Shown here: one piece after another, positions 7,584-63,602 of the stretch
Layout: each line of letters begins with the position of its first letter
Position numbering within the stretch: position 1 is the stretch's first letter
Origin: a virus
Length of the DNA: 63,602 nucleotides
Virus record (IMG/VR): IMGVR_UViG_3300046003_002370
Location: 1-63,602 of that record
Strand: one strand, 5' to 3'
Notes under the pieces: model-generated
Seen by the model: the letters and a program-made list of their open reading frames with translations, nothing else
Told to the model about the DNA's origin: nothing
Database searches by the model: none
Position numbers and translations under genes: made by a program

Positions 7584-7669
7584 GGCATATAATAAAATTA
7601 TTTTAAATTATAAATAGTTGATAATTAAGTATTAATGAAATAAAAGCTTACAGGCTTAGTAAGTTACAG

Positions 7670-7696: not shown

Positions 7697-7700
7697 CCAA

Positions 7701-8132: not shown

Positions 8133-8134
8133 TT

Positions 8135-8749: not shown

Positions 8750-8750
8750 T

Positions 8751-9521: not shown

Positions 9522-9530
9522 ATAAAAAAT

Positions 9531-10403: not shown

Positions 10404-10404
10404 T

Positions 10405-11107: not shown

Positions 11108-11229
11108 CAAGGAAAAGATACGCGGAAAGACAAGTTGATAAATGGATTAAATGGTCTTTTTTAGTTAAAGGAAAAATTAAATTTAAAGAATTACTAGAAA
11201 TACAAAAAGAATATAAACTATATAATTAA
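11062..11229 (+). CDS. Small basic hypothetical protein (55 aa)
   Basis: The reading frame starts inside the 3' end of the nuclease gene (46-base overlap) and ends YKLYN. It is Lys/Arg-rich (EEKRLARKRYAERQ). The length of the overlap lowers confidence in the start, but the frame fills the gap and is protein-like. Confidence 0.55.
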   Translation: MFKDSRINPAEEKRLARKRYAERQVDKWIKWSFLVKGKIKFKELLEIQKEYKLYN

Positions 11230-11232
11230 ACT

Positions 11233-11397
11233 ATGAAAAACAAAAATTTAAAAGTGGAAGAACCAAAAGGATGGATATTATCAGTTGGTCTTTACCCAGG
11301 AATACTATTTGGCATAAGAACTTACGAGGAGCCAGAATTTAACACGCACGTTTTTTACTTACCATTCATTGACATTGCATTAGAAATAGACAAATAA
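11233..11397 (+). CDS. Small hypothetical protein (54 aa)
   Basis: GWILSVGLYPGILFGIRTYE followed by THVFYLPFIDIALEI is a compact pattern that recurs in small proteins of Bacteroidota phages near nucleotide genes. One hydrophobic stretch could associate with membrane, but the charge pattern suggests a small soluble beta fold. It ends four bases before the reductase gene. Confidence 0.7.
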   Translation: MKNKNLKVEEPKGWILSVGLYPGILFGIRTYEEPEFNTHVFYLPFIDIALEIDK

Positions 11398-11400
11398 TAT

Positions 11401-19500: not shown

Positions 19501-21921
19501 TATTAACTTTTGCTGCTTCTCTATAGCTGTATTCTGCTCAATTTCCTTTTTTTCCATTAAAGAACCAAGAGCTTTTTTTTCTTCAGTACTTGTTGCTAAT
19601 TCAAATTTTTTTCCTAGTTCATTAAGCTCTTTGCCTAATGTCCTTATTTCATTTTTAGAATTATAATCAGAAAATGCAGACAAATATAACCCTTTTGTAT
19701 ATGGAGTACCCGACATAACCATACCCATACCAAACCCTGAGAAACCTGCATGTGCGGCATTTTCCATTACTGGACGTCCATCTATTAAATTCTGTGTCAT
19801 TGTAGTGCCGACTTCACCCGCGCTCTCTAAGAATTGATCAAACACAAAGCCCGGAGTTTTACTTTTAAAATATGCTTTCATGCTATTATCAATAACGTCC
19901 GGCCCTCCCGCTCTGCCAAGAGAAACCTTTGCTCTCTTTAATATTGGTATAGTTGTCAATGCAGAAAACCCAGCTTCCGCTCCCCCATATCCAATTGATT
20001 TTAACCAAAGTTCTGTTTTAGAATAATTAGCTTCTCCTGCTGCCATTTCCGTCTGCATATCAGCCATTTTAGATCCAGCTGAAGTTACCCCAACCATAGC
20101 CGTGGCTGCTCCCCCGGAAAGGACCATAGCTGTTATTATAGGTATTTGTGAAGTAAGTTCTTGAGCAGCAAATTTACCAAAATTAGAACCGTTATCAAAA
20201 GCATCTTCAAAAGACACGTCTCTAGTGTATGAATTTCTAATATCAGTAACCGCATTTGTGTAATTAACAGCCCATTTGTCCATTCTCTCTGATGCAGTTT
20301 CTGCATCTTTGCCATATATCATTTTTGATACCTCATCTCCTGCGTAAGTAAAAGGAGTCAACACGTCTAATACTTTACCTGTAAAGTAAGCTCCGCCAAC
20401 GGCTAAATCACTTAATCCTGTACCAACTGTAGTTAAATATTTTTCAGATAAATCATAGTTTTTAGCGGCTGCTGTGGAGAATATATCTGAATCTTCTAAC
20501 TTTTTTAAGTTTTCATTCTGCTCTTTAAAAGCGTTGATAGCATACGAACTATTAAGTTTATATTGTTCTTCTAGTTTGTTATACGCATTCAAAAACCCCT
20601 TATTTACTTGTTGCCCGTTTTTTAAAGTTACTATTTCTGAATCTAAAGGATCAAAAGTAATACCAACGTTAGCAAATTTACGAACTATAGCTGTTAATTC
20701 CGTGTCGCTTTTAGGAACTCCCTTAAATATATCGGCACAATCAACGGCTAAGTTGTTTATATTAATTGCTTTATTTTCAGCTATTTTTAATTTAGTTGTT
20801 GATTTATTTTGGGTATCTACGGCTTGTTTATTAGCTAATAAAGACCCGACGTATAGACTGGACTGCATAGATGGATCATTTTCTATAATTTTTTCTGCAA
20901 CGTCCGCTTTTTTATCAGTAATAGCCCTATTTTTTAATAAATCTCGGGTCAATCTTTCTGTTTCCAGCCCTAATTCTTCCTTTGATATATTTGGATTTCT
21001 TTTTAGTATTCTTAGTTTTGATTCTCTTAATTCTTTTTCGTAAGGCTTAATTATTGTAGTAGTGTACCCCGCTCCTCCCATAGCTATTTGGCCAGTTGCA
21101 GCCATTGAAACTTTCTGTTCTTTTTTAGGAACAAATAAATCGGGATTATCAAATTCTTCGTCCACCTGAGCTTGGAACTCAGGGGTTATTGCTTTTGCTA
21201 CTTGCTTATTGTAATTTAATTTTGTAATATCTTGTAGATATTTATTTTTAGATAAATCTTTAGCTTTTATGTTCTTATTAAAAAAATCTTTAAGTATATC
21301 CGCATTCTTATTTGCTATTTCAGGGCGTTCCTTTGCGTTAGCATTTAAGACACCGACATCAAATTGTAACACGTCAGATTCTATTTTTTTACCAGTAGTT
21401 GGATCAGTATACACGGCTTTTACTGCGTCAAAAACATTTGATATATCACCCCCTAATGAGGTTGTTTCTTCAAAAGTCAAATTAGGTATACCGGCATATA
21501 GCTTTTTAAGGAACTCGGACCCTTCCTCCTCCTCCATTGCAAAAGCAGTTTTATTTGCTTTTTCGGTTCTTAATGATGAAGTTAAATAATCACCAACACT
21601 ACCTTTTTCAATAACAACAGGCTCGTATTCCCTTTCTATTGGACCAATTGTAATTGATCCTTTATCCAGCTTTTTTATATTATCTAATATAGCGTCTTTT
21701 TTCCTAGGTGTAGCTGCCTTCATTTTTTCAACACCTAGTATATCTAATTCAGGAGTTGTTGGAAATGCACTTTTTTGCTCAATAGGTTTTGCTTTAACCT
21801 TTTTAGGAGCTAATTTTTTTTCTTTGATATAATCATCAATAGAAACCTCTGCCTTATCGGCAGCGGCTTGTATCTGTTCTTCTGTATAATCTAATCCATT
21901 AGGGTGTGTATATACCGGCAT
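13564..21921 (-). CDS. Giant virion protein (polyvalent/ejection protein, 2785 aa)
   Basis: Last and longest gene of the leftward block. ATHEVGHYAANLL near residue 1005 is a zinc-peptidase HExxH motif. AGVPLAAYINKYLPMRAIAASKRIL near 1325 and the C-terminal block SQQQASSIGRLILAFGNTPM near 2465 recur in large polyvalent proteins of phages. Before the lysine-rich end are hydrophobic stretches (GFIQSMIFSSLQSALFAVAF). No phage RNA-polymerase catalytic motif is visible, unlike giant proteins of N4 or crAss-like phages. It is probably packed in the head and ejected with DNA. The N-terminal DYTEEQIQAAADKAEVSIDDY looks like a small helical domain. Confidence 0.75.
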   Translation of the reverse strand: MPVYTHPNGLDYTEEQIQAAADKAEVSIDDYIKEKKLAPKKVKAKPIEQKSAFPTTPELDILGVEKMKAATPRKKDAILDNIKKLDKGSITIGPIEREYEPVVIEKGSVGDYLTSSLRTEKANKTAFAMEEEEGSEFLKKLYAGIPNLTFEETTSLGGDISNVFDAVKAVYTDPTTGKKIESDVLQFDVGVLNANAKERPEIANKNADILKDFFNKNIKAKDLSKNKYLQDITKLNYNKQVAKAITPEFQAQVDEEFDNPDLFVPKKEQKVSMAATGQIAMGGAGYTTTIIKPYEKELRESKLRILKRNPNISKEELGLETERLTRDLLKNRAITDKKADVAEKIIENDPSMQSSLYVGSLLANKQAVDTQNKSTTKLKIAENKAININNLAVDCADIFKGVPKSDTELTAIVRKFANVGITFDPLDSEIVTLKNGQQVNKGFLNAYNKLEEQYKLNSSYAINAFKEQNENLKKLEDSDIFSTAAAKNYDLSEKYLTTVGTGLSDLAVGGAYFTGKVLDVLTPFTYAGDEVSKMIYGKDAETASERMDKWAVNYTNAVTDIRNSYTRDVSFEDAFDNGSNFGKFAAQELTSQIPIITAMVLSGGAATAMVGVTSAGSKMADMQTEMAAGEANYSKTELWLKSIGYGGAEAGFSALTTIPILKRAKVSLGRAGGPDVIDNSMKAYFKSKTPGFVFDQFLESAGEVGTTMTQNLIDGRPVMENAAHAGFSGFGMGMVMSGTPYTKGLYLSAFSDYNSKNEIRTLGKELNELGKKFELATSTEEKKALGSLMEKKEIEQNTAIEKQQKLINNTLRAGVAEAIISIEGKKASLQNEAKEILDDKNISTENKDLIIEDLRVEFNKLEAIKQDALSPSSMSSDVSRFKLLKYSKPDRYDDLLEQAAEGVGLEGDIKPSTEKIQKAAFDLYLKQEIDININNASKVEGARIKAFETKNEAIEYIKTKSGLSEIDQKTAIDGIREGADGFNNDTTGQILVKENMLSNGRSQIATHEVGHYAANLLLKSNPKAFTPIAKQLLLTTKKLDKNLYKQLVNSTERNENGDLKATEVISRFLELVSKGDITFAEKSKKYKGLAGLFGSMVQKTHPDITAFDFKGENDMYNFVVGLGKKISTGTLTLSDIESGKKSGAIKLAELESMTKEYSGIASGIDAGVEFSKVDELKKELANLEVEYDEGYGDMEEADYKAQKGNIERKLQIEIKKAPQETPKTEKPKESIKEKVSEEEAEDVKIIENNKGAVASNKVQQIYDEKGIEGAFDIIKQFGPITSKLVDKRRDAPGFDKQLLTDELETGSGGLYDLIKSYDPKAGVPLAAYINKYLPMRAIAASKRILSEKFSKEIMDDSGSPAYDMEDDYSFDSTLDEIRDEEDRQANLINPIDMMGAELGQEYNASVKEKIDAMTASELGSLTFAKLNDLAPEVTAKFFGTTVRKVTDAKANLATPEIPVIQKIIYDNRTKLIKLLPEGAILEGMPASDILIGTGLSIPRKLQQLFYDQKERLGKGAGLIPFQLKKNITQEEFLNAFGINKDGSFEPFGGQDPRSQTILAMIRLYGKIASNTAVRMEAVQTLEQAADLKAGASLIQFSEGIKKQAIIDGDFNFSGSSETMNTDTNTYRGLLDNVMGIFGIESPMPLANNAVGYQNFDNEALSSYIKSREGLLKMLPIELTFDKGLLAGLRASQYRTDSSGVDWVKNLFKKVISKEGNILAPDSPEVISIKKSLSADNINSLLAKGNSELDLSDTSKGIIKKINTLEKALGKDGKYTSINPTKQTNVKNTILIDPNNSSSIEKAGKELSKFNEINKLKAELFFNITKEWVNENGISKTERNTRIGTVYTMFAGNNNIASGIRSLSAMVGIVVDKKNKEGNILRKLPRNKKGNLTPTAIRTIDKFLNTLPEVEKQERLNKVTNKYKYKTDKKGNLILENGKKIENNKNEYYEKLLIEPEYTVEHEDAMINIMPRVLEEIINNKDYIEFNSTSKLVPLSLAKIRNKDVASKLSDASTYNLLLDKEVKSSKGRYEIIPLTKVADVSGIQFSKALSTEFNKILEETRGIGVNEQFSDITARTIGAGKGKFRVFMSPSAEDFAGLLYDFMGKGTRGEEQKKFFEDNLLKPYAAGVTRINNIRANIKQGYRDLKKEHPVEAKKLTKIIEGTTNTYDQAVRVYLWDTNGVEIPGLSRPEIDKLVDVIKNDPAFTDFANKLSAASGQLEGWIKPTEYWNVESIVSDLHNVTEKGGRKQILGEFVENADAIFSPENLNKIEAARGTDFRGALEDSLFRMKNGTNRSSGDKIGSAWASWVNNSSGAIMFLNTRSAVLQLVASTNFINWSDNNPAMAAKAFANQPQYWKDFSELWNSNSLKERRAGLKSDVDQAELANAVEGSKNKVKAALAYLLKVGYTPTQMADSFAICSGGATFYRNRINTYEKQGMSASDAKDAAYKDFLATSEESQQSADPSKISQQQASSIGRLILAFGNTPMQYNRLMKKAGRDLINGRGDAKTHISKILYYGFIQSMIFSSLQSALFAVAFEEEPEDEKEKAKQKEKAGKKYISIANSMLDTILRGTGIYGAVVSTVKNTILEYLKQEEKGFKGESAKIIIAAAGISPPISSKMSKLNSAWNTSKYDKDIIKERGFSLMQDGKFNPSPAYDIAGKVTAATTNFPLDRLVDKANNVAEMLDERNKTWQKLALGLGWKPYDVGVVNEEEDRIKAEAKTTKKFESDVKSAEDRIAKKEALANRIDKMTDEQMNEYIDSLATAKEKAAVKKEMIWDRVEKNKNQ

Positions 21922-54777: not shown

Positions 54778-54820
54778 GTGACGTTAGCCTACTACTATAT
54801 ATATAACTACCTAATGTCAC
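54778..54820. repeat. Hairpin element TGACGTTAGCC, copy 1
   Basis: GTGACGTTAGCCTA ... CTAATGTCACAC forms an imperfect hairpin with GTGAC/GTCAC at its base. A closely related hairpin stands at 56679-56723. Could be a terminator or a protein-binding site. Confidence 0.6.
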
Positions 54821-55180
54821 ACTTGTTGTAAAAAAAAATATTGTAAAAAATTTTTTGTAACATATAAATAAGTAAAATGTTATAGCGTTATTTCTACGCT
54901 GCGCCGTATAAAAGGAAATCCGTTTCGTTTACCCCATGGGGGTTCAATCTGGTGATCCGGTTCGAAGGGTCGGGGCCGGCGTCCGTAAACCGTACGATAC
55001 TTTCGGGATTCTGGCTGGTACTATCGCAGCTGCTGTGCCGTGTACGCTGGCGTGTATCTGTGCGTGTGTGTGCCGTGTGTCTCCCGTGTTGTACGATAAT
55101 GTGAAACGAATACGAATACCAGGCAACGTGTAATACGATACGATACGCGGAGCGTAGCGACGCGCTTGTGCGTATAGCAT

Positions 55181-55223
55181 TTACAGACCTGGTACGGATG
55201 GTGATTGATAATATATATGTAAC
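55181..55223 (+). promoter_or_regulatory. 43-base promoter element, copy 1
   Basis: TTACAGAC, GTACGG, seven bases, TTGATAAT, then ATGTAAC. Drives the 55238 gene. Confidence 0.75.
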
Positions 55224-55237
55224 AAATAAATAACAAT

Positions 55238-55420
55238 ATGAAAAGACTTAGTGATTTACATCCTCAGACCAGACTGGATCTGATAGAGGAAACCAGATGG
55301 CAATATGGACAGGAGTGGGTAGCTACCTGCATAAAGTATGACTTCCACATATCTTGTATGTGTGACTGGAGTAAGACCAGGCAAGGAGGCGAGTACTGGT
55401 GCTCGGTTGACTGGAGTTAA
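55238..55420 (+). CDS. Small Trp/Cys hypothetical protein (60 aa)
   Basis: LSDLHPQTRLDLIEETRWQY then CIKYDFHISCMCDWSKTR; four Cys and six Trp. First gene of the rightward block. It begins 15 bases after promoter copy 1. The Cys could bind zinc. Function unknown. Confidence 0.7.
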   Translation: MKRLSDLHPQTRLDLIEETRWQYGQEWVATCIKYDFHISCMCDWSKTRQGGEYWCSVDWS

Positions 55421-55432
55421 CATAACCTGATC

Positions 55433-55457
55433 AGGTCCCGGAAACGGGATCTCTTTT
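55433..55457 (+). terminator. Terminator after the first rightward gene
   Basis: TCCCG-GAAA-CGGGA with TCTCTTTT following. The GNRA loop and the T-rich end fit an intrinsic terminator. The segment 55458-55524 is GC-rich and contains a reversed GCTATACAC. Confidence 0.75.
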
Positions 55458-55513
55458 ACTCTGCTTCATGCGGAATTGGCAGGGCGGAGCATGCGAGCTT
55501 GCGAGCATCGCTC

Positions 55514-55522
55514 GTGTATAGC
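55514..55522 (-). repeat. GCTATACAC word, only reversed copy
   Basis: GTGTATAGC on the plus strand, three bases before promoter copy 2. Confidence 0.8.
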
Positions 55523-55524
55523 AC

Positions 55525-55567
55525 TTACAGACTCAGTACGAATGGTATTTGATAATATATATGAATC
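55525..55567 (+). promoter_or_regulatory. 43-base promoter element, copy 2
   Basis: TTACAGAC, AGTACGA, seven bases, TTGATAAT; the end is ATGAATC rather than ATGTAAC. No gene of more than eight codons lies between it and copy 3, so the two may act in tandem. Confidence 0.7.
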
Positions 55568-55603
55568 AAATGAATAACAACAAACTTAATAAAAAATAAA
55601 TAC

Positions 55604-55646
55604 TTACAAACTTAATACGAAGTGAAATTGATAATATAAGTGTAAC
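55604..55646 (+). promoter_or_regulatory. 43-base promoter element, copy 3
   Basis: TTACAAAC, AATACGA, seven bases, TTGATAAT, GTGTAAC. Precedes the 55674 gene. Confidence 0.75.
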
Positions 55647-55673
55647 AAATAATAACTAATAAATAAATAAAAT

Positions 55674-55820
55674 ATGAAAAACTTAAATGAAATTAAAAGT
55701 AGGTTAGTTGATCGTGGATCTTTTGACTTAACCTTAGATCAAGAATTCTCTGGACTAACTAGAGAAGAACAAAATTCAGTCCGGGACTATGTTAGATTTT
55801 ATCTCCTCATGGAATCATAA
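55674..55820 (+). CDS. Small hypothetical protein (48 aa)
   Basis: MKNLNEIKSRLVDRGSFDLT continuing with LDQEFSGLTREEQNSVRDYV; acidic, helical. It sits alone between promoter copies 3 and 4, which supports it as a monocistronic gene. Function unknown. Confidence 0.7.
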   Translation: MKNLNEIKSRLVDRGSFDLTLDQEFSGLTREEQNSVRDYVRFYLLMES

Positions 55821-55834
55821 AATGCTATACAAAC

Positions 55835-55877
55835 TTACAGACTTAATACGACTAGTAATTGATAATATAAATGTAAT
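55835..55877 (+). promoter_or_regulatory. 43-base promoter element, copy 4
   Basis: TTACAGAC, AATACGA, seven bases, TTGATAAT, ATGTAAT. A near-match of the GCTATACAC word (GCTATACAA) lies 12 bases upstream. Confidence 0.75.
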
Positions 55878-55903
55878 TAAATAACAAACTAAATATAAAT
55901 AAA

Positions 55904-56314
55904 ATGAACAAATTTAAAAAAGAAGTTGAAGTAGTAGAAGTAGTTGAAGTAACTAAAACTAACAAAGAATTGATCGCTGAAGCCATATCTAAGCTTAGTC
56001 CAGAAGAACTAGCCTTAATATATCCGCCGATGGAACGAGCTAACTTTGTAGTCAGAAAGTCTTGGCTAGGTCGTGGACAAATCATAAGTTTTGTCAACAA
56101 CAAAAATCAAAGAATAACTTATAGTCACGACGAAGTCTTGAAAATAATGTTACCTAAGTTATCAATAATGCCATGTTGGATCAAACGTGAGTACTGGTCA
56201 CAATCAACTGACTTACCAAGTAATGTTAGGAATACAAGTGCGGTCTTGAGTGTTGAACAATTGATCGACGAAACTTCCAAAGAGTTTCAAGATGCTGAGG
56301 CAAGTCTAACATAG
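55904..56314 (+). CDS. Hypothetical protein (136 aa)
   Basis: An N-terminal acidic Val-Glu repeat (EVEVVEVVEVTK) precedes a compact domain (KLSPEELALIYPPMERANF, SWLGRGQIISFVNNK) and an acidic end. Single-gene unit between promoters 4 and 5. No family is recognised. Confidence 0.7.
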   Translation: MNKFKKEVEVVEVVEVTKTNKELIAEAISKLSPEELALIYPPMERANFVVRKSWLGRGQIISFVNNKNQRITYSHDEVLKIMLPKLSIMPCWIKREYWSQSTDLPSNVRNTSAVLSVEQLIDETSKEFQDAEASLT

Positions 56315-56338
56315 ACTGCTTCGGCTCCCCTCGAGGAT

Positions 56339-56347
56339 GCTATACAC
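56339..56347 (+). repeat. GCTATACAC word, intergenic
   Basis: Three bases before promoter copy 5, after a GC-rich stretch (CTTCGGCTCCCC and CGAGGAT). Confidence 0.8.
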
Positions 56348-56349
56348 TT

Positions 56350-56392
56350 TTACAGACAGAATACGAAGTATAAATGATAATATAAATGTAAC
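56350..56392 (+). promoter_or_regulatory. 43-base promoter element, copy 5
   Basis: TTACAGAC, AATACGA, seven bases, ATGATAAT, ATGTAAC. Precedes the 56407 gene by 14 bases. Confidence 0.75.
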
Positions 56393-56406
56393 TAAAAACA
56401 AATAAT

Positions 56407-56583
56407 ATGAAAGAACTAATCAAATACGCTACTGAAATGGCTAGACAATATCCACACAAGTTGGATGAAATAAATGATCTGCTAAGCCTGTGTCATTCTG
56501 AGATCGAAGAAGGCGGATCTGAGACCCACGAAATAGAGTTATGTGCTGAAGATATTAAACAAATATGTGAAGATGATGAATAA
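56407..56583 (+). CDS. Small acidic hypothetical protein (58 aa)
   Basis: MKELIKYATEMARQYPHKLD and later CHSEIEEGGSETHEIELCAE; helical and strongly acidic at the end. Overlaps the next small gene by 11 bases. Function unknown. Confidence 0.7.
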   Translation: MKELIKYATEMARQYPHKLDEINDLLSLCHSEIEEGGSETHEIELCAEDIKQICEDDE

Positions 56584-56674
56584 AGAACAATTAACCAACC
56601 TGATCGCTTTTGTGAGCCTACTGGTAGCTTACGGAATAATAATGTATTACCTAGGAGCTATAAACGGTTTTTAA
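56573..56674 (+). CDS. Tiny membrane protein (33 aa)
   Basis: MMNKEQLTNLIAFVSLLVAY followed by GIIMYYLGAINGF is a single transmembrane helix. The start overlaps the preceding gene. Short single-helix proteins are frequent in phage early arms; the target is unknown. Confidence 0.6.
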   Translation: MMNKEQLTNLIAFVSLLVAYGIIMYYLGAINGF

Positions 56675-56678
56675 AAAC

Positions 56679-56723
56679 AGTGACGTTAGCCTATTATTTC
56701 TAGTTTAATAGGCTACTGTCACA
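56679..56723 (+). repeat. Hairpin element TGACGTTAGCC, copy 2
   Basis: AGTGACGTTAGCCTATTA pairs with TAATAGGCTA...GTCAC; near-perfect stem with loop TTTCTAGT. The tail CACACTTTT gives terminator character. Related to 54778-54820. Sequence 56724-56820 carries two GCTATACAC words and a T-run (CCTTTTTTTTT) but no gene. Confidence 0.8.
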
Positions 56724-56753
56724 CTTTTATACGGTTCCTTTTTTTTTAGCGGT

Positions 56754-56762
56754 GCTATACAC
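56754..56762 (+). repeat. GCTATACAC word, intergenic
   Basis: GTGCTATACACGG in the gene-free stretch 56675-56906. Confidence 0.8.
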
Positions 56763-56821
56763 GGCCTGACCCTGCAATAAAGTCGGAAGAGTAGACTCCG
56801 TCCTACCTATATTTTAGCTAT

Positions 56822-56830
56822 GCTATACAC
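56822..56830 (+). repeat. GCTATACAC word, intergenic
   Basis: ATGCTATACACTTTT, 28 bases before promoter copy 6. Confidence 0.8.
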
Positions 56831-56849
56831 TTTTCTCCATCGATCACCC

Positions 56850-56892
56850 TTACAGACTAAATACGATGCCATTTTGATAATAAATATGAATC
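56850..56892 (+). promoter_or_regulatory. 43-base promoter element, copy 6
   Basis: TTACAGAC, AATACGA, seven bases, TTGATAAT; the last part is diverged (ATATGAATC). Confidence 0.7.
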
Positions 56893-56906
56893 TAAAAACA
56901 AATAAC

Positions 56907-57182
56907 ATGAAGTACATTAAAGTTCAAAGCGAAGAAATTATCTTTAGTCATGAAAATGACCGCTATATCCTAATTAAGAAAGAAAATGACAAGATTATTG
57001 GGTTAAACTTCTGTCAAGGCGACGATTTTGATTACTTCGTTGAGCACTACATGGAAATTGATCACGACCTAACTAACTTCTATCATGTGGTAAGTAAGTT
57101 TATCGATCTACCTAACGAATATGACTTGATAAATGAGGTAATCTGGGCTTGGTTTCGGTATAAAAACCCCTGGTGTTCGTAG
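56907..57182 (+). CDS. Hypothetical protein (91 aa)
   Basis: The start at 56907 (MKYIKVQSEEIIFSHENDRY) is preferred over an upstream ATG at 56820, because that one lies upstream of promoter copy 6 and the GCTATACAC word. Acidic (CQGDDFDYFVEHYMEIDHDL). Function unknown. It ends TAG and is followed by a hairpin (AACCCC/GGGGTT). Confidence 0.7.
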   Translation: MKYIKVQSEEIIFSHENDRYILIKKENDKIIGLNFCQGDDFDYFVEHYMEIDHDLTNFYHVVSKFIDLPNEYDLINEVIWAWFRYKNPWCS

Positions 57183-57216
57183 TCCGAAAGCCTTGTAAAC
57201 AAAGGAGTTCGGGGTT
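57165..57216 (+). terminator. Possible terminator hairpin after the 56907 gene
   Basis: AACCCC at 57165 and GGGGTT at 57211 close a branched hairpin with an inner CCTT/AAGG. A TATC-rich tract follows. No strong T-run, so attenuation rather than full termination is possible. Confidence 0.45.
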
Positions 57217-57258
57217 ATACCTATCTATCTTTTAAAACTAATAAATAATCAACCACCC

Positions 57259-57301
57259 TTACAAACTTAACACGATGTGGTTTTGATAATATAAATGTAA
57301 C
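57259..57301 (+). promoter_or_regulatory. 43-base promoter element, copy 7
   Basis: TTACAAAC, ACACGA, seven bases, TTGATAAT, ATGTAAC. Precedes the 57320 frame by 18 bases. Confidence 0.75.
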
Positions 57302-57319
57302 AAATAAAAACTTATACTT

Positions 57320-57568
57320 ATGGAAAATCATTTTGGAATTAGCGTGGAAGAATATTGGTGGAAAACTTTCACTAGCGAGGCTATGGACTCAACAACTACA
57401 AGTACTTATGCTCCGTTGAGCGAACCGTGGTATACGAAAACGATCGAGTAATATCACCTTGTAAACTTAACTTATGAAGAGTTAATTAATAGACTGGGTT
57501 AAAACGATCAAACTAGTTATTACCGTGACAATGAAATTATGGTAGAAATGGGTCAAATAAATGAATAG
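57320..57568 (+). CDS. Gene whose frame passes through two TAA codons (82-codon frame)
   Basis: The first 43 codons (MENHFGISVEEYWWKTFTSE and on to PWYTKTIE) end at TAA 57449. The same frame continues as YHLVNLTYEELINRLG, a second TAA (57500), NDQTSYYRDNEIMVEMGQIN and ends at TAG 57566. The text after each TAA reads like protein and fills an otherwise empty gap before 57592. Either a stop-containing pseudogene, or TAA is read as an amino acid here; see the tRNA-like gene at 61405. Confidence 0.55.
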
Positions 57569-57591
57569 TAAACAATAAAAACAAAGAAATT

Positions 57592-57777
57592 ATGAAAGAA
57601 TACGAAGTAGAAGTGTGTGAAACACTCATAAGAATAGTAACCGTTGAAGCAATGAATGTGGAGGATGCGATTAAATTTGTAAAGTATGACTATAACAACG
57701 CTGAGTTAGTATTGGATAGCGATGATTTCTTTGATGTAGATTTTAATGTAGTAAATAATGATACCACAATAAAATAG
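57592..57777 (+). CDS. DpnD/PcfM-like small protein
   Basis: 61 residues. MKEYEVEVCETLIRIVTVEA with AMNVEDAIKFVKYDYNNAEL and VLDSDDFFDVDF matches the small DpnD/PcfM family, whose function is unknown. Downstream of the 57320 frame and without its own promoter element, so probably cotranscribed with it. Confidence 0.7.
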   Translation: MKEYEVEVCETLIRIVTVEAMNVEDAIKFVKYDYNNAELVLDSDDFFDVDFNVVNNDTTIK

Positions 57778-57786
57778 AAGATTAAT

Positions 57787-57829
57787 TTACAGACAAGACA
57801 CGATACCTAATTGATAATATAAATGTAAC
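57787..57829 (+). promoter_or_regulatory. 43-base promoter element, copy 8
   Basis: TTACAGAC, AGACACGA, seven bases, TTGATAAT, ATGTAAC. Precedes the 57847 gene. Confidence 0.75.
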
Positions 57830-57846
57830 AAATAAACAAAAATAAA

Positions 57847-58074
57847 ATGACTAGAAAAGAGTGGTTTGATAACCAAACACCGGAGCTACAAGAAAAGTTC
57901 AAATACAATTGTAATACCATAAATGATGAGCCATGCTTTGATTACTGGATTACTAATGATAACGGTACGGAAGGATTAGGCGGTGCGTTTATATTCCACA
58001 AATCTAGGGAAGGACACACATTTTGGTATGAACTTAATAACCAACTAGAATCAATTCAAAAAAATGGAAAGTGA
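57847..58074 (+). CDS. Small hypothetical protein (75 aa)
   Basis: MTRKEWFDNQTPELQEKFKY with CFDYWITNDNGTEGLGGAF. It is acidic and aromatic. It overlaps the next gene by 11 bases. No family recognised. Confidence 0.7.
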   Translation: MTRKEWFDNQTPELQEKFKYNCNTINDEPCFDYWITNDNGTEGLGGAFIFHKSREGHTFWYELNNQLESIQKNGK

Positions 58075-58168
58075 TTGTTGTGGAGCATACACCAGTATGC
58101 CAGAGTACGGGTTATGCCCTGATTGCATGGAACATTGTGAATTTATAGACTACGAAGATGAAGAATAA
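58064..58168 (+). CDS. Small zinc-ribbon-like protein (34 aa)
   Basis: Six Cys... two pairs lie in DCCGAY and CPDCMEHC, spaced as in a zinc ribbon, with an acidic tail DYEDEE. Overlaps genes on both sides. Such tiny zinc proteins are common in phage early arms. Confidence 0.65.
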   Translation: MESDCCGAYTSMPEYGLCPDCMEHCEFIDYEDEE

Positions 58169-58376
58169 TATGGATATAACCGAATACACTCGATCAATAA
58201 GCGACGCTAATCAACGTATGTTCAAAGCAAAGTACGGACTAACGGAGTTTCATTCCGATAATGAAAGTAGAGTAAAACTATGGCTGCAACAAATGATAGC
58301 TAAGGAACAAGAAGAAAATAAACTAGACTCAATGGTGTCATTCACCGACAGTATTGGTGGTCTTGATAAGGATTAA
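58158..58376 (+). CDS. Small hypothetical protein (72 aa)
   Basis: ATG at 58158 (MKNNMDITEYTRSI) or 58170 (MDITEYTRSI). The end DSMVSFTDSIGGLDKD is acidic. It ends just before promoter copy 9. Function unknown. Confidence 0.65.
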   Translation: MKNNMDITEYTRSISDANQRMFKAKYGLTEFHSDNESRVKLWLQQMIAKEQEENKLDSMVSFTDSIGGLDKD

Positions 58377-58379
58377 CCT

Positions 58380-58422
58380 ATACAGACACAATACGATTTT
58401 GAATTGATAATATATGTGTAAC
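58380..58422 (+). promoter_or_regulatory. 43-base promoter element, copy 9
   Basis: ATACAGAC, AATACGA, seven bases, TTGATAAT, GTGTAAC. Precedes the 58439 gene. Confidence 0.75.
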
Positions 58423-58438
58423 AAACAAATACAAATTT

Positions 58439-58615
58439 ATGAAAACTATTAAAAAATTAAAGACTAGAGAATTGATTGTTGACGGCGTGCTATACACACC
58501 TTATATGATCGGCGAATTGCCACCAAGTTTTGGCTACAAATTATCAACAGACCGTGAGGCTGAAGGAAAATCAGAATGGTTTAATTACAAAGGTTTAACA
58601 TATTTAAAAAAGTAA
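58439..58615 (+). CDS. Small hypothetical protein (58 aa)
   Basis: MKTIKKLKTRELIVDGVLYT and later FGYKLSTDREAEGKSEWFNY; small beta-rich basic protein. A GCTATACAC word lies inside it at 58489 in a different frame from the other coding copies. Function unknown. Confidence 0.7.
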   Translation: MKTIKKLKTRELIVDGVLYTPYMIGELPPSFGYKLSTDREAEGKSEWFNYKGLTYLKK

Positions 58616-58618
58616 AAG

Positions 58619-58903
58619 ATGAAAAAAATACTAAAAAGGTTAGATTTCGAAGAAGTAACTGAGGTTACTTATATTACCGACAGCAGCATAGTAGCTATTA
58701 AATGGAGCAATAAAAAAGTATCTGTTGTAGTACAGTGTCCTGATGAATTATTTTATGGTTGCGATGGTTATCTTAGTTCGCTTAGTTCCTGGAGTAGAAA
58801 ATCTAAGAAGGAATATGTTGAGTCTGCTCTTGACCAGTTGGGTGTTAAAGCTTTTGAATTTAACTCTTATAAAGAATTATACGAATGGTTAGCAACACAG
58901 TAA
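58619..58903 (+). CDS. Small hypothetical protein (94 aa)
   Basis: Mixed alpha/beta with VAIKWSNKKVSVVVQCPDEL near the middle and an amphipathic helical end (SYKELYEWLATQ). Follows the preceding gene by three bases and overlaps the next by 19. No family recognised. Confidence 0.7.
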   Translation: MKKILKRLDFEEVTEVTYITDSSIVAIKWSNKKVSVVVQCPDELFYGCDGYLSSLSSWSRKSKKEYVESALDQLGVKAFEFNSYKELYEWLATQ

Positions 58904-59046
58904 TATCAGACGAAGAAAAGTTTTCAAAGTGGATGATCGAAGTAGTTAAGAGCGTCCACTATGCAAACAACGACGACATGGCAAATGTCTATAACCGAGT
59001 AATAGATAACAACAACCGCTTAATAATCGCTTATGGAACTCTCTGA
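58885..59046 (+). CDS. Small hypothetical protein (53 aa)
   Basis: MVSNTVISDEEKFSKWMIEV then HYANNDDMANVYNRV. Overlaps the genes before (19 bases) and after (14 bases). Acidic, helical. Function unknown. Confidence 0.6.
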   Translation: MVSNTVISDEEKFSKWMIEVVKSVHYANNDDMANVYNRVIDNNNRLIIAYGTL

Positions 59047-59269
59047 ACTAAAAAGTAAATGGATCAAAATGCGTAATAGTAAAATTCCACTTAATATCCA
59101 GTTTATACACGAATATGCTATACACAAAGGTATGGTTGTAACACCTGAAATAATAAGTGTTGTTGCACAGTTTTATCCAGCGGACCTAATGACAGAGCAC
59201 TTCGATCGGGAGTTTGATTTAACAAGAGTATACGATAAAAATAATAACTTTATAAAAATAGTAGAGTAA
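59033..59269 (+). CDS. Small hypothetical protein (78 aa)
   Basis: MELSELKSKWIKMRNSKIPL with IQFIHEYAIHKGMVVTPEI and a Phe-Asp-rich end. An in-frame GCTATACAC encodes AIH at 59117. It shares one base with the next gene (TAATG). No family recognised. Confidence 0.65.
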   Translation: MELSELKSKWIKMRNSKIPLNIQFIHEYAIHKGMVVTPEIISVVAQFYPADLMTEHFDREFDLTRVYDKNNNFIKIVE

Positions 59270-59523
59270 TGACAAAACAATTAGAATTACCTAAATGGTT
59301 TCAAGGTCAAACATATCCTTGCGGTGACGAAGTAACTAATCCATTCAGTGGTGAAAGTTGCGTGTTAAACAACTTAGAATTAAGCATGTACGATTTTATT
59401 ATGGGGTGTAACTATCTAATGGAACGTGGTAAAGGATCGTCAAAAATGGTCGGTGAGTTTCACAAAGGATTAACATGGTTCAGGAAAGCAAACCCCATAG
59501 CGTACATGACGCTGCTAGATTAG
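59269..59523 (+). CDS. Small conserved-looking phage protein (84 aa)
   Basis: PYCGDE-type start (KWFQGQTYPCGDEVTNPFSG) with CVLNNLELSMYDFIMGCNYL and a final FRKANPIAYMTLLD. I recall similar short proteins from marine phages; function unknown. The order of a Gly-Lys loop (RGKGSSKMVGEFHKGLTWF) suggests a small globular domain. Confidence 0.65.
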   Translation: MTKQLELPKWFQGQTYPCGDEVTNPFSGESCVLNNLELSMYDFIMGCNYLMERGKGSSKMVGEFHKGLTWFRKANPIAYMTLLD

Positions 59524-59524
59524 T

Positions 59525-59567
59525 CTACAGACACAATACGAAATGATGTTGATAATATAAATGTAAC
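59525..59567 (+). promoter_or_regulatory. 43-base promoter element, copy 10
   Basis: CTACAGAC, AATACGA, seven bases, TTGATAAT, ATGTAAC. Precedes the 59584 gene. Confidence 0.8.
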
Positions 59568-59583
59568 AAATAAATAATATACA

Positions 59584-60189
59584 ATGAAATTACTTACACA
59601 AAACAGCAAACTGAAAAAAACTAGTAAAGCCTTAAATCTTAGAGTATTTAACTTTGGCATTCCAGCTTATAAATCGGTAACAGGTAAACTAACTTGTCCG
59701 TTTGCTGATGAGTGTATAAAGTTTTGTTATGCCCGCAAGGGTGCCTATATATGGGGTAATGTAAAACCTGCATTTGAGAGTCGATATGAGTTATCTAAAT
59801 CGCCTTTGTTTGTTGAGGAGATGAATAAAGAAATCAAAAGAGTACGCGCTGATTATGTCAGAGTACACGATTCCGGTGATTATTATAGTACTGAGTACTT
59901 GAATAAATGGTTGGAGATTGCTATACACAATCCCGATGTCAGGTTTTACAGTTACACTAACTGCGTTGAAATGCTTAAAAATGCCGATCTACCGGATAAT
60001 TACGATATTATATTCAGTGATTCTGGTAAACAAAAGCACTTGATCGATCAAACAGTTGATCGTCACACAAGAATATTCAGTAATAGTGCTGACTTAATTA
60101 AGTTTGGCTACAAAGATACAAGTGAAATTGATCTTTACGCTACTAAATGGTTTAATGATACAATAAAAGTAGGTTTAATAATACATTAA
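59584..60189 (+). CDS. Gp88-like protein
   Basis: 201 residues. CPFADECIKFCYARKGAY near residue 38 gives three Cys in the C-x(6)-C-x(3)-CY pattern, followed by VRVHDSGDYYSTEYLNKWLE and FYSYTNCVEML. This order matches the mycobacteriophage gp88-like family of unknown function, which is suspected to bind a metal or Fe-S cofactor. An in-frame GCTATACAC encodes AIH at 59920. Confidence 0.75.
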   Translation: MKLLTQNSKLKKTSKALNLRVFNFGIPAYKSVTGKLTCPFADECIKFCYARKGAYIWGNVKPAFESRYELSKSPLFVEEMNKEIKRVRADYVRVHDSGDYYSTEYLNKWLEIAIHNPDVRFYSYTNCVEMLKNADLPDNYDIIFSDSGKQKHLIDQTVDRHTRIFSNSADLIKFGYKDTSEIDLYATKWFNDTIKVGLIIH

Positions 60190-60192
60190 GAT

Positions 60193-60360
60193 ATGACACC
60201 AAAAGAAAAAGCAGAGGAATTAGTAATTGAAATGAAAATAGATTATACAGTGCCTTATATTGTGGCCCAACAATGCGCATTAATAGCAGTTGATGAATTG
60301 ATAAAAGAAACTGGTAAAAAATATTGGTATGATGTTAAACGAGAAATAAAGGAATTATGA
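60193..60360 (+). CDS. Small hypothetical protein (55 aa)
   Basis: MTPKEKAEELVIEMKIDYTV then VAQQCALIAVDELIKETGKK is a pattern common to small proteins of Bacteroidota phages. Overlaps the next gene by ATGA. Function unknown. Confidence 0.75.
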   Translation: MTPKEKAEELVIEMKIDYTVPYIVAQQCALIAVDELIKETGKKYWYDVKREIKEL

Positions 60361-60641
60361 GTACAACATTTGGAATATTAAGAATTGAAGTCGATCACGA
60401 TAAATTAGTAGACGAAGACGGCGAACTATTAGAATATATATCTGAAAATATATTTGAACCTATATTTTTTAGATCGATGAACAACTGCAGATGGCTAAAT
60501 AGTATTGCCAGGCATATAAGTGATGATACTAAAGTGTATGCTTTAGATAATTCGGCGCAAGGCGTATATACAATTAAGGATTTGAAAGATCTTTTAGAAC
60601 GAGACAAGCAGTCTTACAGACACAATACGATTAACAATTGA
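60357..60641 (+). CDS. Hypothetical protein (94 aa)
   Basis: MSTTFGILRIEVDHDKLVDE, then ISENIFEPIFFRSMNNCRWL and HISDDTKVYALDNSAQGVYT: a small alpha/beta protein. Its 3' end overlaps promoter copy 11, so regulation is nested in coding sequence. Function unknown. Confidence 0.7.
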   Translation: MSTTFGILRIEVDHDKLVDEDGELLEYISENIFEPIFFRSMNNCRWLNSIARHISDDTKVYALDNSAQGVYTIKDLKDLLERDKQSYRHNTINN

Positions 60642-60656
60642 TAATATAAATGTAAC
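60614..60656 (+). promoter_or_regulatory. 43-base promoter element, copy 11
   Basis: TTACAGAC, AATACGA, seven bases, TTGATAAT, ATGTAAC; lies partly in the 3' end of the 60357 gene. Precedes the 60675 gene. Confidence 0.8.
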
Positions 60657-60674
60657 CAATTAAATATAAACAAA

Positions 60675-61052
60675 ATGAAAGAATTAGTAAACAATATTTT
60701 TGACAAAGAAATCACATCAGCATTAGATGGTTTCCCAAGTGTGTATTCAAAAGATGATTTGATTTGCGTAGTAAACCGTATTCGTCTTGAAATAAACGAG
60801 TTAGAGCAGCCAAAGCCTGAGCTTGATAAAGCATTATTGAGGAAGGCAATTGAAGAAGCGGTAGCTCAATTTACTAGACAGTTAGAACGTAATGACAATG
60901 AGTACATTGATTACGGCAGCGCGGAGTTCAATATTGAATATAATAATGTGCTTAACCTAGAGAGCATTGATCTTAATATAGATAATGTTACAGATTCGCT
61001 TGAGGGTACATTAGAAGAAGTATTCTACGAAATTTTAGATATAAAAGAATAA
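60675..61052 (+). CDS. Hypothetical protein (125 aa)
   Basis: Strongly acidic, helical. Text such as DDLICVVNRIRLEINELEQP near residue 29 and DLNIDNVTDSLEGTLEEVFY at the end. No family recognised. Directly downstream of promoter copy 11. Confidence 0.65.
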   Translation: MKELVNNIFDKEITSALDGFPSVYSKDDLICVVNRIRLEINELEQPKPELDKALLRKAIEEAVAQFTRQLERNDNEYIDYGSAEFNIEYNNVLNLESIDLNIDNVTDSLEGTLEEVFYEILDIKE

Positions 61053-61073
61053 TTAACAATTAAATTAAATATT

Positions 61074-61301
61074 ATGACAAATGTAAATTTAGCGGAAACG
61101 CTACAGGTTGAAAGTAGTGCTATCTTTGAAGTAACTTACTATCCAAACGTCGAAAGATTATTTGTGTTCTTTAAGAACGGTAGAGAGTATGAGTACTTAA
61201 ATGTTCCTAATCATGTTATGAGCGGCTTAAGAGACGCATCGTCTAAAGGTAAATTCCTTAACAAGTATGTATTAGCTCAATACCGCTTTAAAAAAGTATA
61301 A
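61074..61301 (+). CDS. KTSC-domain protein
   Basis: 75 residues. VESSAIFEVTYYPNVERLFV then FFKNGREYEYLNVPNHVMSG and SKGKFLNKYVLAQYRFK match the KTSC domain (usual length about 60-70) in order. The domain occurs fused to lysyl-tRNA synthetase and alone in phages, where its role is unknown. The neighbouring tRNA-like gene makes a tRNA link worth noting. Confidence 0.8.
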   Translation: MTNVNLAETLQVESSAIFEVTYYPNVERLFVFFKNGREYEYLNVPNHVMSGLRDASSKGKFLNKYVLAQYRFKKV

Positions 61302-61304
61302 GTT

Positions 61305-61313
61305 GCTATACAC
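61305..61313 (+). repeat. GCTATACAC word, intergenic
   Basis: Four bases after the KTSC gene stop, upstream of the tRNA-like gene. Confidence 0.8.
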
Positions 61314-61404
61314 GCCGACTCAGGGTGCAGTGAGTTCGTTAAACAAGAACTGTACAAATAGCTAAGCTGTGTAAAGCGGTTGACGATTAATCAATTAGAA
61401 GCTA

Positions 61405-61473
61405 AGTCAGGTGGCAGATTGGTATGTATTGGATTTTAATCCTAACAAGCAGGTTCGAATCCTGCCCTGACTA
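61405..61473 (+). tRNA. tRNA-like gene, best anticodon reading UUA
   Basis: Acceptor AGTCAGG/CCTGACT (7 bp) with discriminator A; T arm GCAGG-TTCGAAT-CCTGC (5 bp, canonical loop); D arm short (GCA/TGT, 8-base loop with GG). Anticodon arm TTGGA-TTTTAAT-CCTAA has an A-C mismatch at the loop end, a G-U pair and a 3-base variable loop, giving anticodon UUA, complementary to the TAA stop codon. Alternative: a 6-base loop in a GGA/TCC stem, a damaged lysine (UUU) tRNA. No CCA is encoded. It is 69 nt, slightly short. Confidence 0.75.
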
Positions 61474-61487
61474 CTAAATTTAACATC

Positions 61488-61649
61488 ATGAGTAGAACAG
61501 TAAAACAACAGTACAGAAAGTCAAGAAGATTTGATAGATCTTGTAGGAATAGTGGATCATGCTCTTATTGCAGAGGCAATAGATTACACAGTTCTAACAC
61601 AAGACTACAAGCATCGTCTTACAGACTAAACACGAACAATGATCGATAA
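61488..61649 (+). CDS. Small Cys-rich basic protein (53 aa)
   Basis: MSRTVKQQYRKSRRFDRSCR and NSGSCSYCRGNRLHSSNTR; three Cys in an RSC-x6-C-x2-C order and a basic N-terminus suit a small zinc/nucleic-acid binder. Its last codons lie inside promoter copy 12. The arrangement with two Cys pairs is common in phage small proteins. Confidence 0.6.
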   Translation: MSRTVKQQYRKSRRFDRSCRNSGSCSYCRGNRLHSSNTRLQASSYRLNTNNDR

Positions 61650-61661
61650 TATTAATGTAAC
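61619..61661 (+). promoter_or_regulatory. 43-base promoter element, copy 12
   Basis: TTACAGAC, ACACGA, seven bases, TCGATAAT, ATGTAAC. Overlaps the end of the 61488 gene. Precedes the 61676 gene. Confidence 0.75.
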
Positions 61662-61675
61662 TAAAACAAATCAAT

Positions 61676-62173
61676 ATGAATATATTTTATTTAGACAAAG
61701 ACCCTGATAAAGCAGCTTCAATGATGTACAATAAGCACGTTGTAAAAATGATCTTAGAATCCGCACAGTTATTATGTACTGCACATATTATGTTAGATGG
61801 CGATGATGCTGATGTACCATACAAAATGACTCACAAAAATCATCCGTCAGCTATATGGGCGCGTGAGTCTGCGGATAATTATGCATGGTTATACTTCCAC
61901 ATGCTAGCGCTTGGCGAAGAGTATACTAAACGTTATGGTAAAAAACATTTAACTATAACAAAGTGTGAAGAATGTTTAGGCAATATACCAGGTGGTATGT
62001 TAAACTTAGGTTCAACACCAATGCCTCAATGCATGCCTGATGAATACAAAGTTCCTGGTGATAGTGTAACAGCTTACTGGAATTATTACGAAGCTGAAAA
62101 AATTAAAGTACGAAATAGTAACGAAGAAATAAGAACAAGACCTAAGCAATATGAAAGCAACAGTAGAATTTAA
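61676..62173 (+). CDS. Pyrimidine-dimer glycosylase-like phage protein
   Basis: 165 residues. MNIFYLDKDPDKAASMMYNK then HVVKMILESAQLLCTAH, with HKNHPSAIWARESADNYAWL, matches the conserved N-terminal block of the T4 endonuclease V-like (Pyr_excise) family in order. Catalysis as in T4 would need a terminal amine; the start Met-Asn here differs from T4, so activity is uncertain. It may instead be a conserved DNA-repair-related phage protein. Confidence 0.65.
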   Translation: MNIFYLDKDPDKAASMMYNKHVVKMILESAQLLCTAHIMLDGDDADVPYKMTHKNHPSAIWARESADNYAWLYFHMLALGEEYTKRYGKKHLTITKCEECLGNIPGGMLNLGSTPMPQCMPDEYKVPGDSVTAYWNYYEAEKIKVRNSNEEIRTRPKQYESNSRI

Positions 62174-62393
62174 TTTACCAGAAGATAGTTATGATTATGC
62201 TATACACAATATGGCATCTGATCTGGCAGGTTTATTGTGGGAATTAACTCATAATGCAAAAAAGCAATGCGAGCAAGAAGTTGATAATATTGATCCTATT
62301 AATCAAAATATTTATGACGGCATAGACATAGTATTTGATAAAATAAACAAATTATTAACTGAATATAATATAGACCCAGATAAATTAGGATAA
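62151..62393 (+). CDS. Small hypothetical protein (80 aa)
   Basis: MKATVEFNLPEDSYDYAIHN with MASDLAGLLWELTHNAKKQC is a pattern known from many phages (function unknown). Its start overlaps the preceding gene by 23 bases. An in-frame GCTATACAC encodes AIH at 62199. Confidence 0.7.
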   Translation: MKATVEFNLPEDSYDYAIHNMASDLAGLLWELTHNAKKQCEQEVDNIDPINQNIYDGIDIVFDKINKLLTEYNIDPDKLG

Positions 62394-62394
62394 T

Positions 62395-62610
62395 ATGGAA
62401 AATGATGTTTTTGATAAAGATTATTTAAACGATTTAGCAAGTAATAAAGTTGGATCTAAATTGCAATGTTTATTGCGTGAGGATATGGCTAAGTATCTTG
62501 ATTTGGGCATAAACTGTGACACAGTAGAAGACATGATTGCATCACACAAAAGAGAAGTAAAAGTATGGAGTTATATATTCCAATTAATAGAACAAGATAA
62601 TAAATTATGA
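62395..62610 (+). CDS. Small hypothetical protein (71 aa)
   Basis: MENDVFDKDYLNDLASNKVG with QCLLREDMAKYLDLGINCD. Acidic helical protein. It overlaps the phosphoesterase start by 4 bases (ATGA-type). No family recognised. Confidence 0.65.
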   Translation: MENDVFDKDYLNDLASNKVGSKLQCLLREDMAKYLDLGINCDTVEDMIASHKREVKVWSYIFQLIEQDNKL

Positions 62611-63284
62611 AAATATGGCATATATCAGATACTCATACGTATCACGACTTACTAACTATTCCTCAAGGAATTGATATGGTAATACATTCTGGAGATTGTA
62701 GTAATCCTCGTGATCCATATACTAATGAACCAGAGGTTAGAGATTTTATTGATTGGTATAAAAAGTTACCTATCAAATATAAAATATATGTAGCGGGCAA
62801 TCATGATACAAGCATTGAAAAAGGTTTAATAAATAAAGTAGATTTTAAAGAAGAAAATATTGTATATTTAGAAAATGAATATGTAACTATTGAAGGTATT
62901 AAAATCTTTGGCTCACCTCATACGCCACAGTTTGGTCAATGGGCATTTATGAAAGGGCGCCCTAAGCTTGATAGATTCTGGAAACTTGCTATACACAAAC
63001 CTTGTGATATTATTGTTACTCACGGGCCTCCTAAAGGCGTTTTAGACAAGTCTTTCGATCGTGATGACAATATGGAATCTTGCGGGGATAAGTCTTTATT
63101 AAATTTAGTATTAGAGATGCAACCTGCTTATATGTGCTTTGGTCACATACACAACTGTAAAGATATTATTAATGCAGGAATGTTAAAGTTAAGTGCTTAT
63201 GATACGTGGTTTAGTAATGGATCAGTAGTAACTGATGGTAAATTTGGAAAATTAACTAGTAATGGTAATATATTTGAAATATGA
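62607..63284 (+). CDS. Calcineurin-like metallophosphoesterase
   Basis: 225 residues. The metal-binding blocks read ISDTH (near residue 6), HSGDCSNP (28), AGNHD (63), THGPP (139) and FGHIH (174), in the usual order for a two-metal phosphoesterase. The substrate cannot be told from sequence; phage relatives act on nucleotides or RNA/DNA ends. An in-frame GCTATACAC encodes AIH at 62988. It overlaps the next gene by four bases. Confidence 0.88.
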   Translation: MKIWHISDTHTYHDLLTIPQGIDMVIHSGDCSNPRDPYTNEPEVRDFIDWYKKLPIKYKIYVAGNHDTSIEKGLINKVDFKEENIVYLENEYVTIEGIKIFGSPHTPQFGQWAFMKGRPKLDRFWKLAIHKPCDIIVTHGPPKGVLDKSFDRDDNMESCGDKSLLNLVLEMQPAYMCFGHIHNCKDIINAGMLKLSAYDTWFSNGSVVTDGKFGKLTSNGNIFEI

Positions 63285-63559
63285 AAGAGGAAACTAAATG
63301 TTATTGCGGTCATACAACTTATTGTGACTGCGGGCCTGAAACACTTGAAGAAGCTGCTGAAAAAACTTACAAAAAATTATATGAAGGAGAACCTCTTACA
63401 CAAGATGTGCCAATTCATGCTTTTAAACAAGGTGCTAAATGGCAACAAGAAAGAAGTTATAGTGAAAAGGAAGTTAAATATATAATTTCAGAAGCTCTAC
63501 AATCAGCATTAGTAAAAGTTGATTTAGAACAATGGTTTAAACAATTTAAAAAGAAATAA
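63281..63559 (+). CDS. Small hypothetical protein with Cys-rich start (92 aa)
   Basis: CYCGHTTYCDCG at residues 7-18 (four Cys) precedes ETLEEAAEKTYKK and WQQERSYSEKE. The last part is the same as 1-86, across the circular junction, and is paralogous to the 536 gene. The Cys may bind zinc. Role unknown. Confidence 0.75.
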   Translation: MKEETKCYCGHTTYCDCGPETLEEAAEKTYKKLYEGEPLTQDVPIHAFKQGAKWQQERSYSEKEVKYIISEALQSALVKVDLEQWFKQFKKK

Positions 63560-63599
63560 AAAATAGAAATTAAAAAAATATGAAAACAGCAGTAGAATT
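63474..63599. repeat. Terminal overlap, right copy
   Basis: Identical to 1-126. The last three bases (TCC) do not match CAT at 127-129, as expected at an assembly end. Confidence 0.9.
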
Positions 63600-63602
63600 T
63601 CC

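Follow-up and report, generated by a model that had tools for sequence, protein, structure and literature searches.

The window analyzed here is the whole 63,602-nucleotide stretch of IMG/VR virus record IMGVR_UViG_3300046003_002370 (positions 1 to 63,602). It carries 13 copies of a 43-base promoter-like element, a gene for a sigma-70-family factor (2288–3052, + strand), and, just upstream of the sigma gene, a gene for a 206-residue protein with a C-terminal helix-turn-helix (HTH; 1358–1978, + strand). Bases 1–126 are repeated at 63474–63599, and the contig is therefore a circular map. On this map, positions 55181–63602 and 1–13269 form a single rightward block that includes the element copy at 5088. 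The rightward block encodes, in order, small proteins of unknown function, the HTH protein, the sigma factor, an Erf-like annealing protein, exonuclease, primase-helicase, thymidylate synthase, MazG, and ribonucleotide reductase. The leftward block runs from 54722 to 13564 and encodes terminase, portal, structural and tail proteins, GroEL, and a giant protein. The rightward block appears to be early-type from its gene content and position.

Thirteen copies of one element

A scan of both strands of the window identified 13 copies of the element, all on the + strand and each ungapped across 43 bases. The - strand, which carries the structural genes, has zero copies in the whole window. The number, positions, and length in the initial annotation were all reproduced. 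The 7-base gap that it described is invariant in length and close to random in sequence, but the blocks on either side vary slightly. The TTACAGAC block is letter-perfect in 9 of the 13 copies, ACGA is present in 12 (the copy at 55181 has ACGG), TTGATAAT is exact in 11, and ATGTAAC is exact in 8. A position weight matrix (PWM) derived from the 13 copies was scored at all window positions on both strands. The copies score 48.9–58.6 bits compared to 2.1 bits for the runner-up position and a maximum of 3.4 bits in shuffled sequence. These data show that the 13 copies are a discrete class.

The element has the geometry of a promoter. Taking GATAAT as the -10 hexamer places +1 at motif base 39, and a same-strand open reading frame (ORF) begins 19–45 nt past the predicted +1 of the window copies. 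The first copy lies at 5088–5130 (predicted +1 at G5126, ORF at 5171) and the second at 55181–55223 (G55219, ORF at 55238). The copies at 55525–55567 and 55604–55646 (G55642) are a tandem pair ahead of a single 48-residue ORF at 55674. The remaining copies, with the predicted +1 and the ORF start in parentheses, are at 55835–55877 (G55873, 55904), 56350–56392 (G56388, 56407), 56850–56892 (G56888, 56907), 57259–57301 (G57297, 57320, encoding 43 residues), 57787–57829 (G57825, 57847), 58380–58422 (G58418, 58439), 59525–59567 (G59563, 59584), 60614–60656 (G60652, 60675), and 61619–61661 (G61657, 61676). The earlier statement that almost all copies precede a same-strand gene agrees with this spacing, with the tandem pair sharing one ORF.

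The element in related viruses

The window terminase is 65% identical to that of MW202828 and about 46% identical to those of the Flavobacterium elemo phages; the Cellulophaga phi38:1 and phi18:3 terminases are more distant than those of the elemo phages. The virus belongs to a large, uncultivated, mostly aquatic group whose hosts are probably Bacteroidota. The initial annotation proposed a motif search in related genomes, and this search found the motif in at least 120 IMG/VR stretches. It is present in 31/31 near-complete genomes, which are the window and 30 others. Those 30 have between 2 and 22 sites per genome, almost always confined to a single strand. The sites are also nearly all on one strand in the 51 long records, where a reversed-pattern control gave 1 match. 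The consensus from 65 genomes is TTACAAACtAAATACGA-N7-TnGATAATATAAAT and contains 37.6 bits. It consists of TTACARAC at about -38 to -31, TAAATACGA at -30 to -22, and an extended -10, TnGATAAT, at -14 to -7.

The predicted start site was evaluated using 533 distinct sites. A purine (A or G) occupies motif base 39 in 527 of them (99%). Among 269 sites scored for ORFs of at least 50 codons, an ORF starts exactly at base 39 in 23 and at bases 37 and 41 in 2 each; ATG itself is three times more common at base 37 than at base 39. ORFs thus start at, and not before, base 39, which is evidence for the start site that does not depend on the -10 assignment. ORFs that begin at base 39 would be translated from leaderless messages. 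The conserved +1 purine, the spike of ATG at +1, and the 19–45 nt leaders support the original proposal that the 43-base elements are phage promoters. Base -13 is the most genome-specific column (z = 36.6, compared to 19.5 for the next highest), a dialect-like variation among the genomes.

The sigma factor and the adjacent HTH protein

The 254-residue protein encoded at 2288 contains regions 2 and 4 separated by 3.0-like and finger-like segments. Region 2 matches PHROG 351 (2e-20) and Sigma70_r2 (3.9e-5; 23.8 bits, slightly below the 24-bit cut-off). The region 4 HTH matches Sigma70_r4 (7e-4; 19.5 bits, under the 24.1-bit cut-off), and the second domain aligns weakly to SigA region 4. Sequence matches in the PDB are sigma factors and include FliA (1rp3) among the top matches (1.3e-6). 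The fold also matches sigma factors including sigma-28. Judged by sequence and fold, the predicted protein is a true sigma-70-family member. The phage sigma stretch FISKRVKGSIRRAIDINRGSIKIPEHK aligns by eye and without gaps to a 27-letter stretch of E. coli sigma. This stretch includes Q437 and T440, which we take to be the E. coli residues that read the T at -12. The phage sigma has G and R at these positions in the by-eye alignment, and the motif has G, not T, at -12. The altered residues are in keeping with the altered base and support the phage sigma as the reader. Region 2.4 also resembles the FliA RIRGA pattern.

Motif and sigma occur together in both search directions. Starting from the motif, a sigma homologue is found in 43/51 long records and in 31/31 near-complete genomes, where it is about 250 residues in length and is split into two ORFs in G010 and G035. 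Starting from sigma, loci were picked by the sigma gene alone with no selection for the motif. The motif is present in the flanks of 71/80 of these loci, with 389 sites on the sigma strand versus 1 on the opposite strand and 0 for a reversed matrix. Most sites (365/390) are upstream of sigma, and all of the nine motif-less loci except L308 have little sequence upstream of sigma. IMG/VR contains more than 500 sigma-bearing stretches. The reader is almost certainly phage-specified and is most likely the sigma factor at 2288. The initial annotation had named this protein as the natural reader, and the reciprocal co-occurrence together with the pairing of the -12 G and the region 2.4 residues makes it the best-supported candidate. 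As a separate observation, G015 has two sigma genes (L208 3695–4447 and L211 4909–5661), each with its own HTH gene.

The HTH gene was absent from the initial annotation. A gene for an HTH protein of about 206 residues adjoins the sigma gene on its upstream side, in many cases overlapping the sigma start, in 31/31 motif phages. Its matches to HTH_11 and HTH_23 are sub-threshold. None was found in four of five sigma-less relatives, and the fifth, elemoB, has a weak match. Between -30 and -22, sigma on its own contacts few bases specifically. The conserved block lies in this region, making it plausible that the HTH protein is a co-factor that reads the upstream block.

Host and phage promoter signals

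Bacteroidota sigma-A promoters have the form TTTG, a spacer of about 20, and TAHHTTTG (PMC6847099). This is the expected code of the likely hosts, and the 43-base element contains neither TTTG nor TAHHTTTG. A search of 397 Flavobacteriaceae genomes allowing up to one mismatch found 13 motif matches, several of them in genomes already known to have one, compared to 9 for a reversed-pattern control. The motif frequency in host genomes is at chance level. TAHHTTTG upstream of genes is enriched in the five sigma-less relatives (observed/expected of 3/0.5, 9/1.3, 6/0.9, 7/1.3, and 7/0.7). Neither the sigma nor the motif was found when these five genomes were searched for both. The antisense TAHHTTTG count is also raised in three of the five, and part of the enrichment may arise from composition or divergent promoters. 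In contrast, the 31 sigma phages have 30 TAHHTTTG sites upstream of genes versus 29.6 expected, which is no enrichment. Full host-type promoter matches in the motif phages are scattered and not placed before genes. The earlier conclusion that the element is not of the Bacteroidota -33/-7 type is borne out by the host-genome and upstream counts. The pattern suggests that the sigma phages use the motif and their sigma-less relatives use the host code, and the sigma-bearing phages seem to have abandoned the host promoter code.

Rare chromosomal copies of the element were noted. Eudoraea sp. NZ_CANLGX010000005 has copies at L135 4824 and 6022 that are 1.2 kb apart and have different 7-base gaps. 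The gene after each copy has no assigned function and neighbours AbiH and a C5-methylase. Among further copies (L141 6627; L131 324), one has a Swt1-like HEPN gene about 1 kb away and another precedes a TerB-like gene. The chromosomal copies could be chance or could mark defence genes triggered by the phage sigma; on the latter reading, a small number of defence-type host genes share the promoter and would be turned on by that sigma. Separately, a host element, TACARACYAAATACGAGAG-N-TGGATAATAG, is found ahead of secreted-protein genes in several Flavobacteriaceae metagenome-assembled genomes (L122, L126, L132, L137) and has the phage promoter core in common.

A model for recognition and its alternatives

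We propose that the 43-base elements are phage promoters with +1 at the purine of motif base 39, and that they are read by host core RNA polymerase carrying the phage sigma. The adjacent HTH protein probably helps to read the unusually long upstream block. The elements would fire many short early-type units rightward. The sigma gene lies downstream within the element-driven block, so its expression would be self-reinforcing. We assign this model a probability of roughly 0.78.

Several observations weigh against this model. At about 38 bits across genomes, the motif exceeds the usual need of a sigma factor. The motif is directly before the sigma gene in only 2/94 genomes. No host-type promoter was found that would make the first sigma. 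Sigma, HTH, and motif may mark a single clade, in which case their co-occurrence would not represent independent events. Sigma residues 118 and 120 covary with base -13 in a suggestive way, but not clearly more than control proteins do, with or without phylogenetic correction. The striking raw pattern pairs R120 with a purine and K120 with a pyrimidine, but the control proteins give similar associations, and for this reason the covariation is not counted as proof. Phylogenetic regression also fails to single out residues 118 and 120.

The motif is used by the early-type block but not by the late one, and the host-type promoters seem to be gone, which leaves expression of the first sigma in need of an explanation. 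A full host promoter precedes 0/109 of the sigma genes examined, and no common promoter was found ahead of them, with the motif there in two genomes only. The first sigma would come either from weak reading of the motif by host polymerase, from unseen host promoters, or from a specificity factor delivered with the virion. A possible candidate for such a factor is the 2785-residue giant protein that closes the structural block (13564–21921, - strand). Its positional counterparts in elemoB and phi38:1 are annotated structural proteins, and it has no Pfam or PHROG match. A HEVGH zincin-like metalloprotease motif is located at residue 1007. It was at first expected to prove an N4- or crAss-like polymerase, but this expectation was not supported. 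Residues 1280–1352 (17866–18084, - strand) are predicted to form a segment like sigma region 2. The segment is confidently modelled (predicted local distance difference test about 90), and sigma region 2 accounts for nearly all of its top structural matches (VIA-align Z 6.5–7.4, root-mean-square deviation about 2 over 61–66 residues).

A virion-delivered phage factor, either the giant protein acting through this domain or packaged sigma, could be the reader of the elements. Most motif phages have a related segment in their giant protein (24 giant ORFs), infection seems to lack any host-type promoter from which to start, and related crAss-like phages are reported to inject an RNA polymerase (PMC8375218). 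Several findings oppose this assignment. The Foldseek E-values are weak (0.15 or worse), and profile comparison of the segment with the phage sigma showed no significant sequence similarity. Some members of the family conserve the segment poorly, a Z under 8 may reflect a common helical arrangement, and no region 4 that would read the upstream blocks was recognized in the giant protein. We regard the giant protein segment as a lead and not a result, and a virion factor as an unlikely reader. A broader proposal combines this lead with the phage sigma model: the group would be wholly off the host promoter code, with its own sigma and HTH partner in charge of the whole of early transcription and every infection kick-started by virion-delivered sigma or the sigma-2-like domain. 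This proposal is doubtful. If true, it would mean host-sigma-independent transcription without a viral polymerase.

Recognition of the elements by an unmodified host holoenzyme, with sigma-A or an alternative host sigma, would leave the phage sigma to serve late genes. This division of labor has precedent in 7-11 and phiEco32, where host sigma-70 serves early genes and the phage sigma serves middle or late genes (PMC8948821). The sigma gene itself needs some first transcriber, and one or two motif copies exist in a few Flavobacteriaceae chromosomes. In the present group, however, the motif lies only on the early-type strand with essentially none on the late strand or in the late block. The motif-holding hosts lack a phage-type sigma homologue; only region 4 matches to frames of about 290 residues were found, and these are probably sigma-A. 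Host sigma was rejected as the reader based on the chance-level motif frequency in the 397 host-family genomes, the lack of a TTTG/TAHHTTTG match, and the promoter contrast between sigma and sigma-less phages. We consider the host holoenzyme quite improbable as the reader.

The very long conserved block at -38 to -22 would also fit ordinary promoters overlapped by operators, with the HTH protein as the phage regulator that binds them and with no sigma-specific class. In the window copies, TTACA and TGTAA at the two ends make up an imperfect dyad, and the HTH gene is co-conserved with sigma. The TGTAA end lacks conservation in many relatives whereas the -10 and +1 are conserved, and there is no host-like -10 inside the element, making this explanation very unlikely. 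Promoters for a phage-encoded RNA polymerase of the single-subunit or crAss-like virion type can resemble the element in their strong conservation up to +1, but PHROG and Pfam scans of the larger window proteins yielded no polymerase, and the sporadic DxDGD-type motifs are not orthologous, so this idea is scarcely tenable.

Comparison with known systems

T4 middle promoters consist of a MotA box and a sigma-70 -10. The phage element is similar in having a -10 with an extra conserved block near -30 in place of the normal -35, but a phage sigma is present here as well. Sigma-28/FliA promoters have a GCCGATAA -10 and a TAAAGTTT -35. The element shares a GATAA core with G at -12, but it has no TAAAGTTT -35 as its upstream block, and the phage protein is not FliA. 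The phage sigma regulons of phiEco32 gp36 and 7-11 gp47 are another close parallel (PMC8948821). The common features are a podovirus-type phage, opposed early and late blocks, a sigma gene outside the late structural block, and a sigma-70-like factor that would redirect host RNA polymerase to a phage-specific consensus. Co-occurrence of a phage sigma with such a consensus is found here also. The 7-11 promoter is GTAAtg-(16)-aCTA compared to the several blocks of the present element. The crAss-like phage phi14:2 reportedly relies on an injected polymerase for early transcription (cited in PMC8375218). It resembles the window in having a structural module that is distantly related, a dense block of early genes, and a giant protein as the last structural one; unlike phi14:2, the window has no detected polymerase and has a free sigma plus the sigma-2-like segment in the giant protein.

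Phage-encoded sigma factors that act on promoters of their own have been described before. What is new is their apparent use in an early-type block and the apparent loss of host-type promoters. The co-conserved HTH protein and the location of the motif on the early-type and not the late block extend the initial annotation. A search of open PubMed Central papers found no description of the motif string in a phage context. For this large set of uncultivated viruses, the analysis supplies a promoter code together with its likely reader and probable co-factor, and would make transcription units predictable from sequence in metagenomic phages. Promoter/sigma pairs from the group, which differ naturally in their base -13 dialect, are candidate orthogonal pairs, and how transcription begins in a phage without visible host-type promoters becomes a question that can be tested.

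Other features of the locus

A search for late promoters yielded enriched words that resembled terminators and a dyad element, and no clear late promoter emerged from it. The dyad is about 44 bases, GTGACATTAGCC ... GGCTATTGTCAC, and is located at 54778–54820 in the window on both strands. It gave 39 regex matches in 23/31 related genomes and has no match in Rfam. The dyad often sits in the divergent gap between the early and late blocks near the first promoter element, and the late-strand dyad often surrounds TATATAGTA. It is possibly a late promoter, operator, terminator, or origin. A tRNA gene at 61405–61473 separates the twelfth and thirteenth promoter copies. Directly upstream of several element copies, the word TGCTATAC is repeated in one orientation or the other, for example at 55171–55180 and 56336–56349, and is perhaps an arm of the terminator of the preceding unit.

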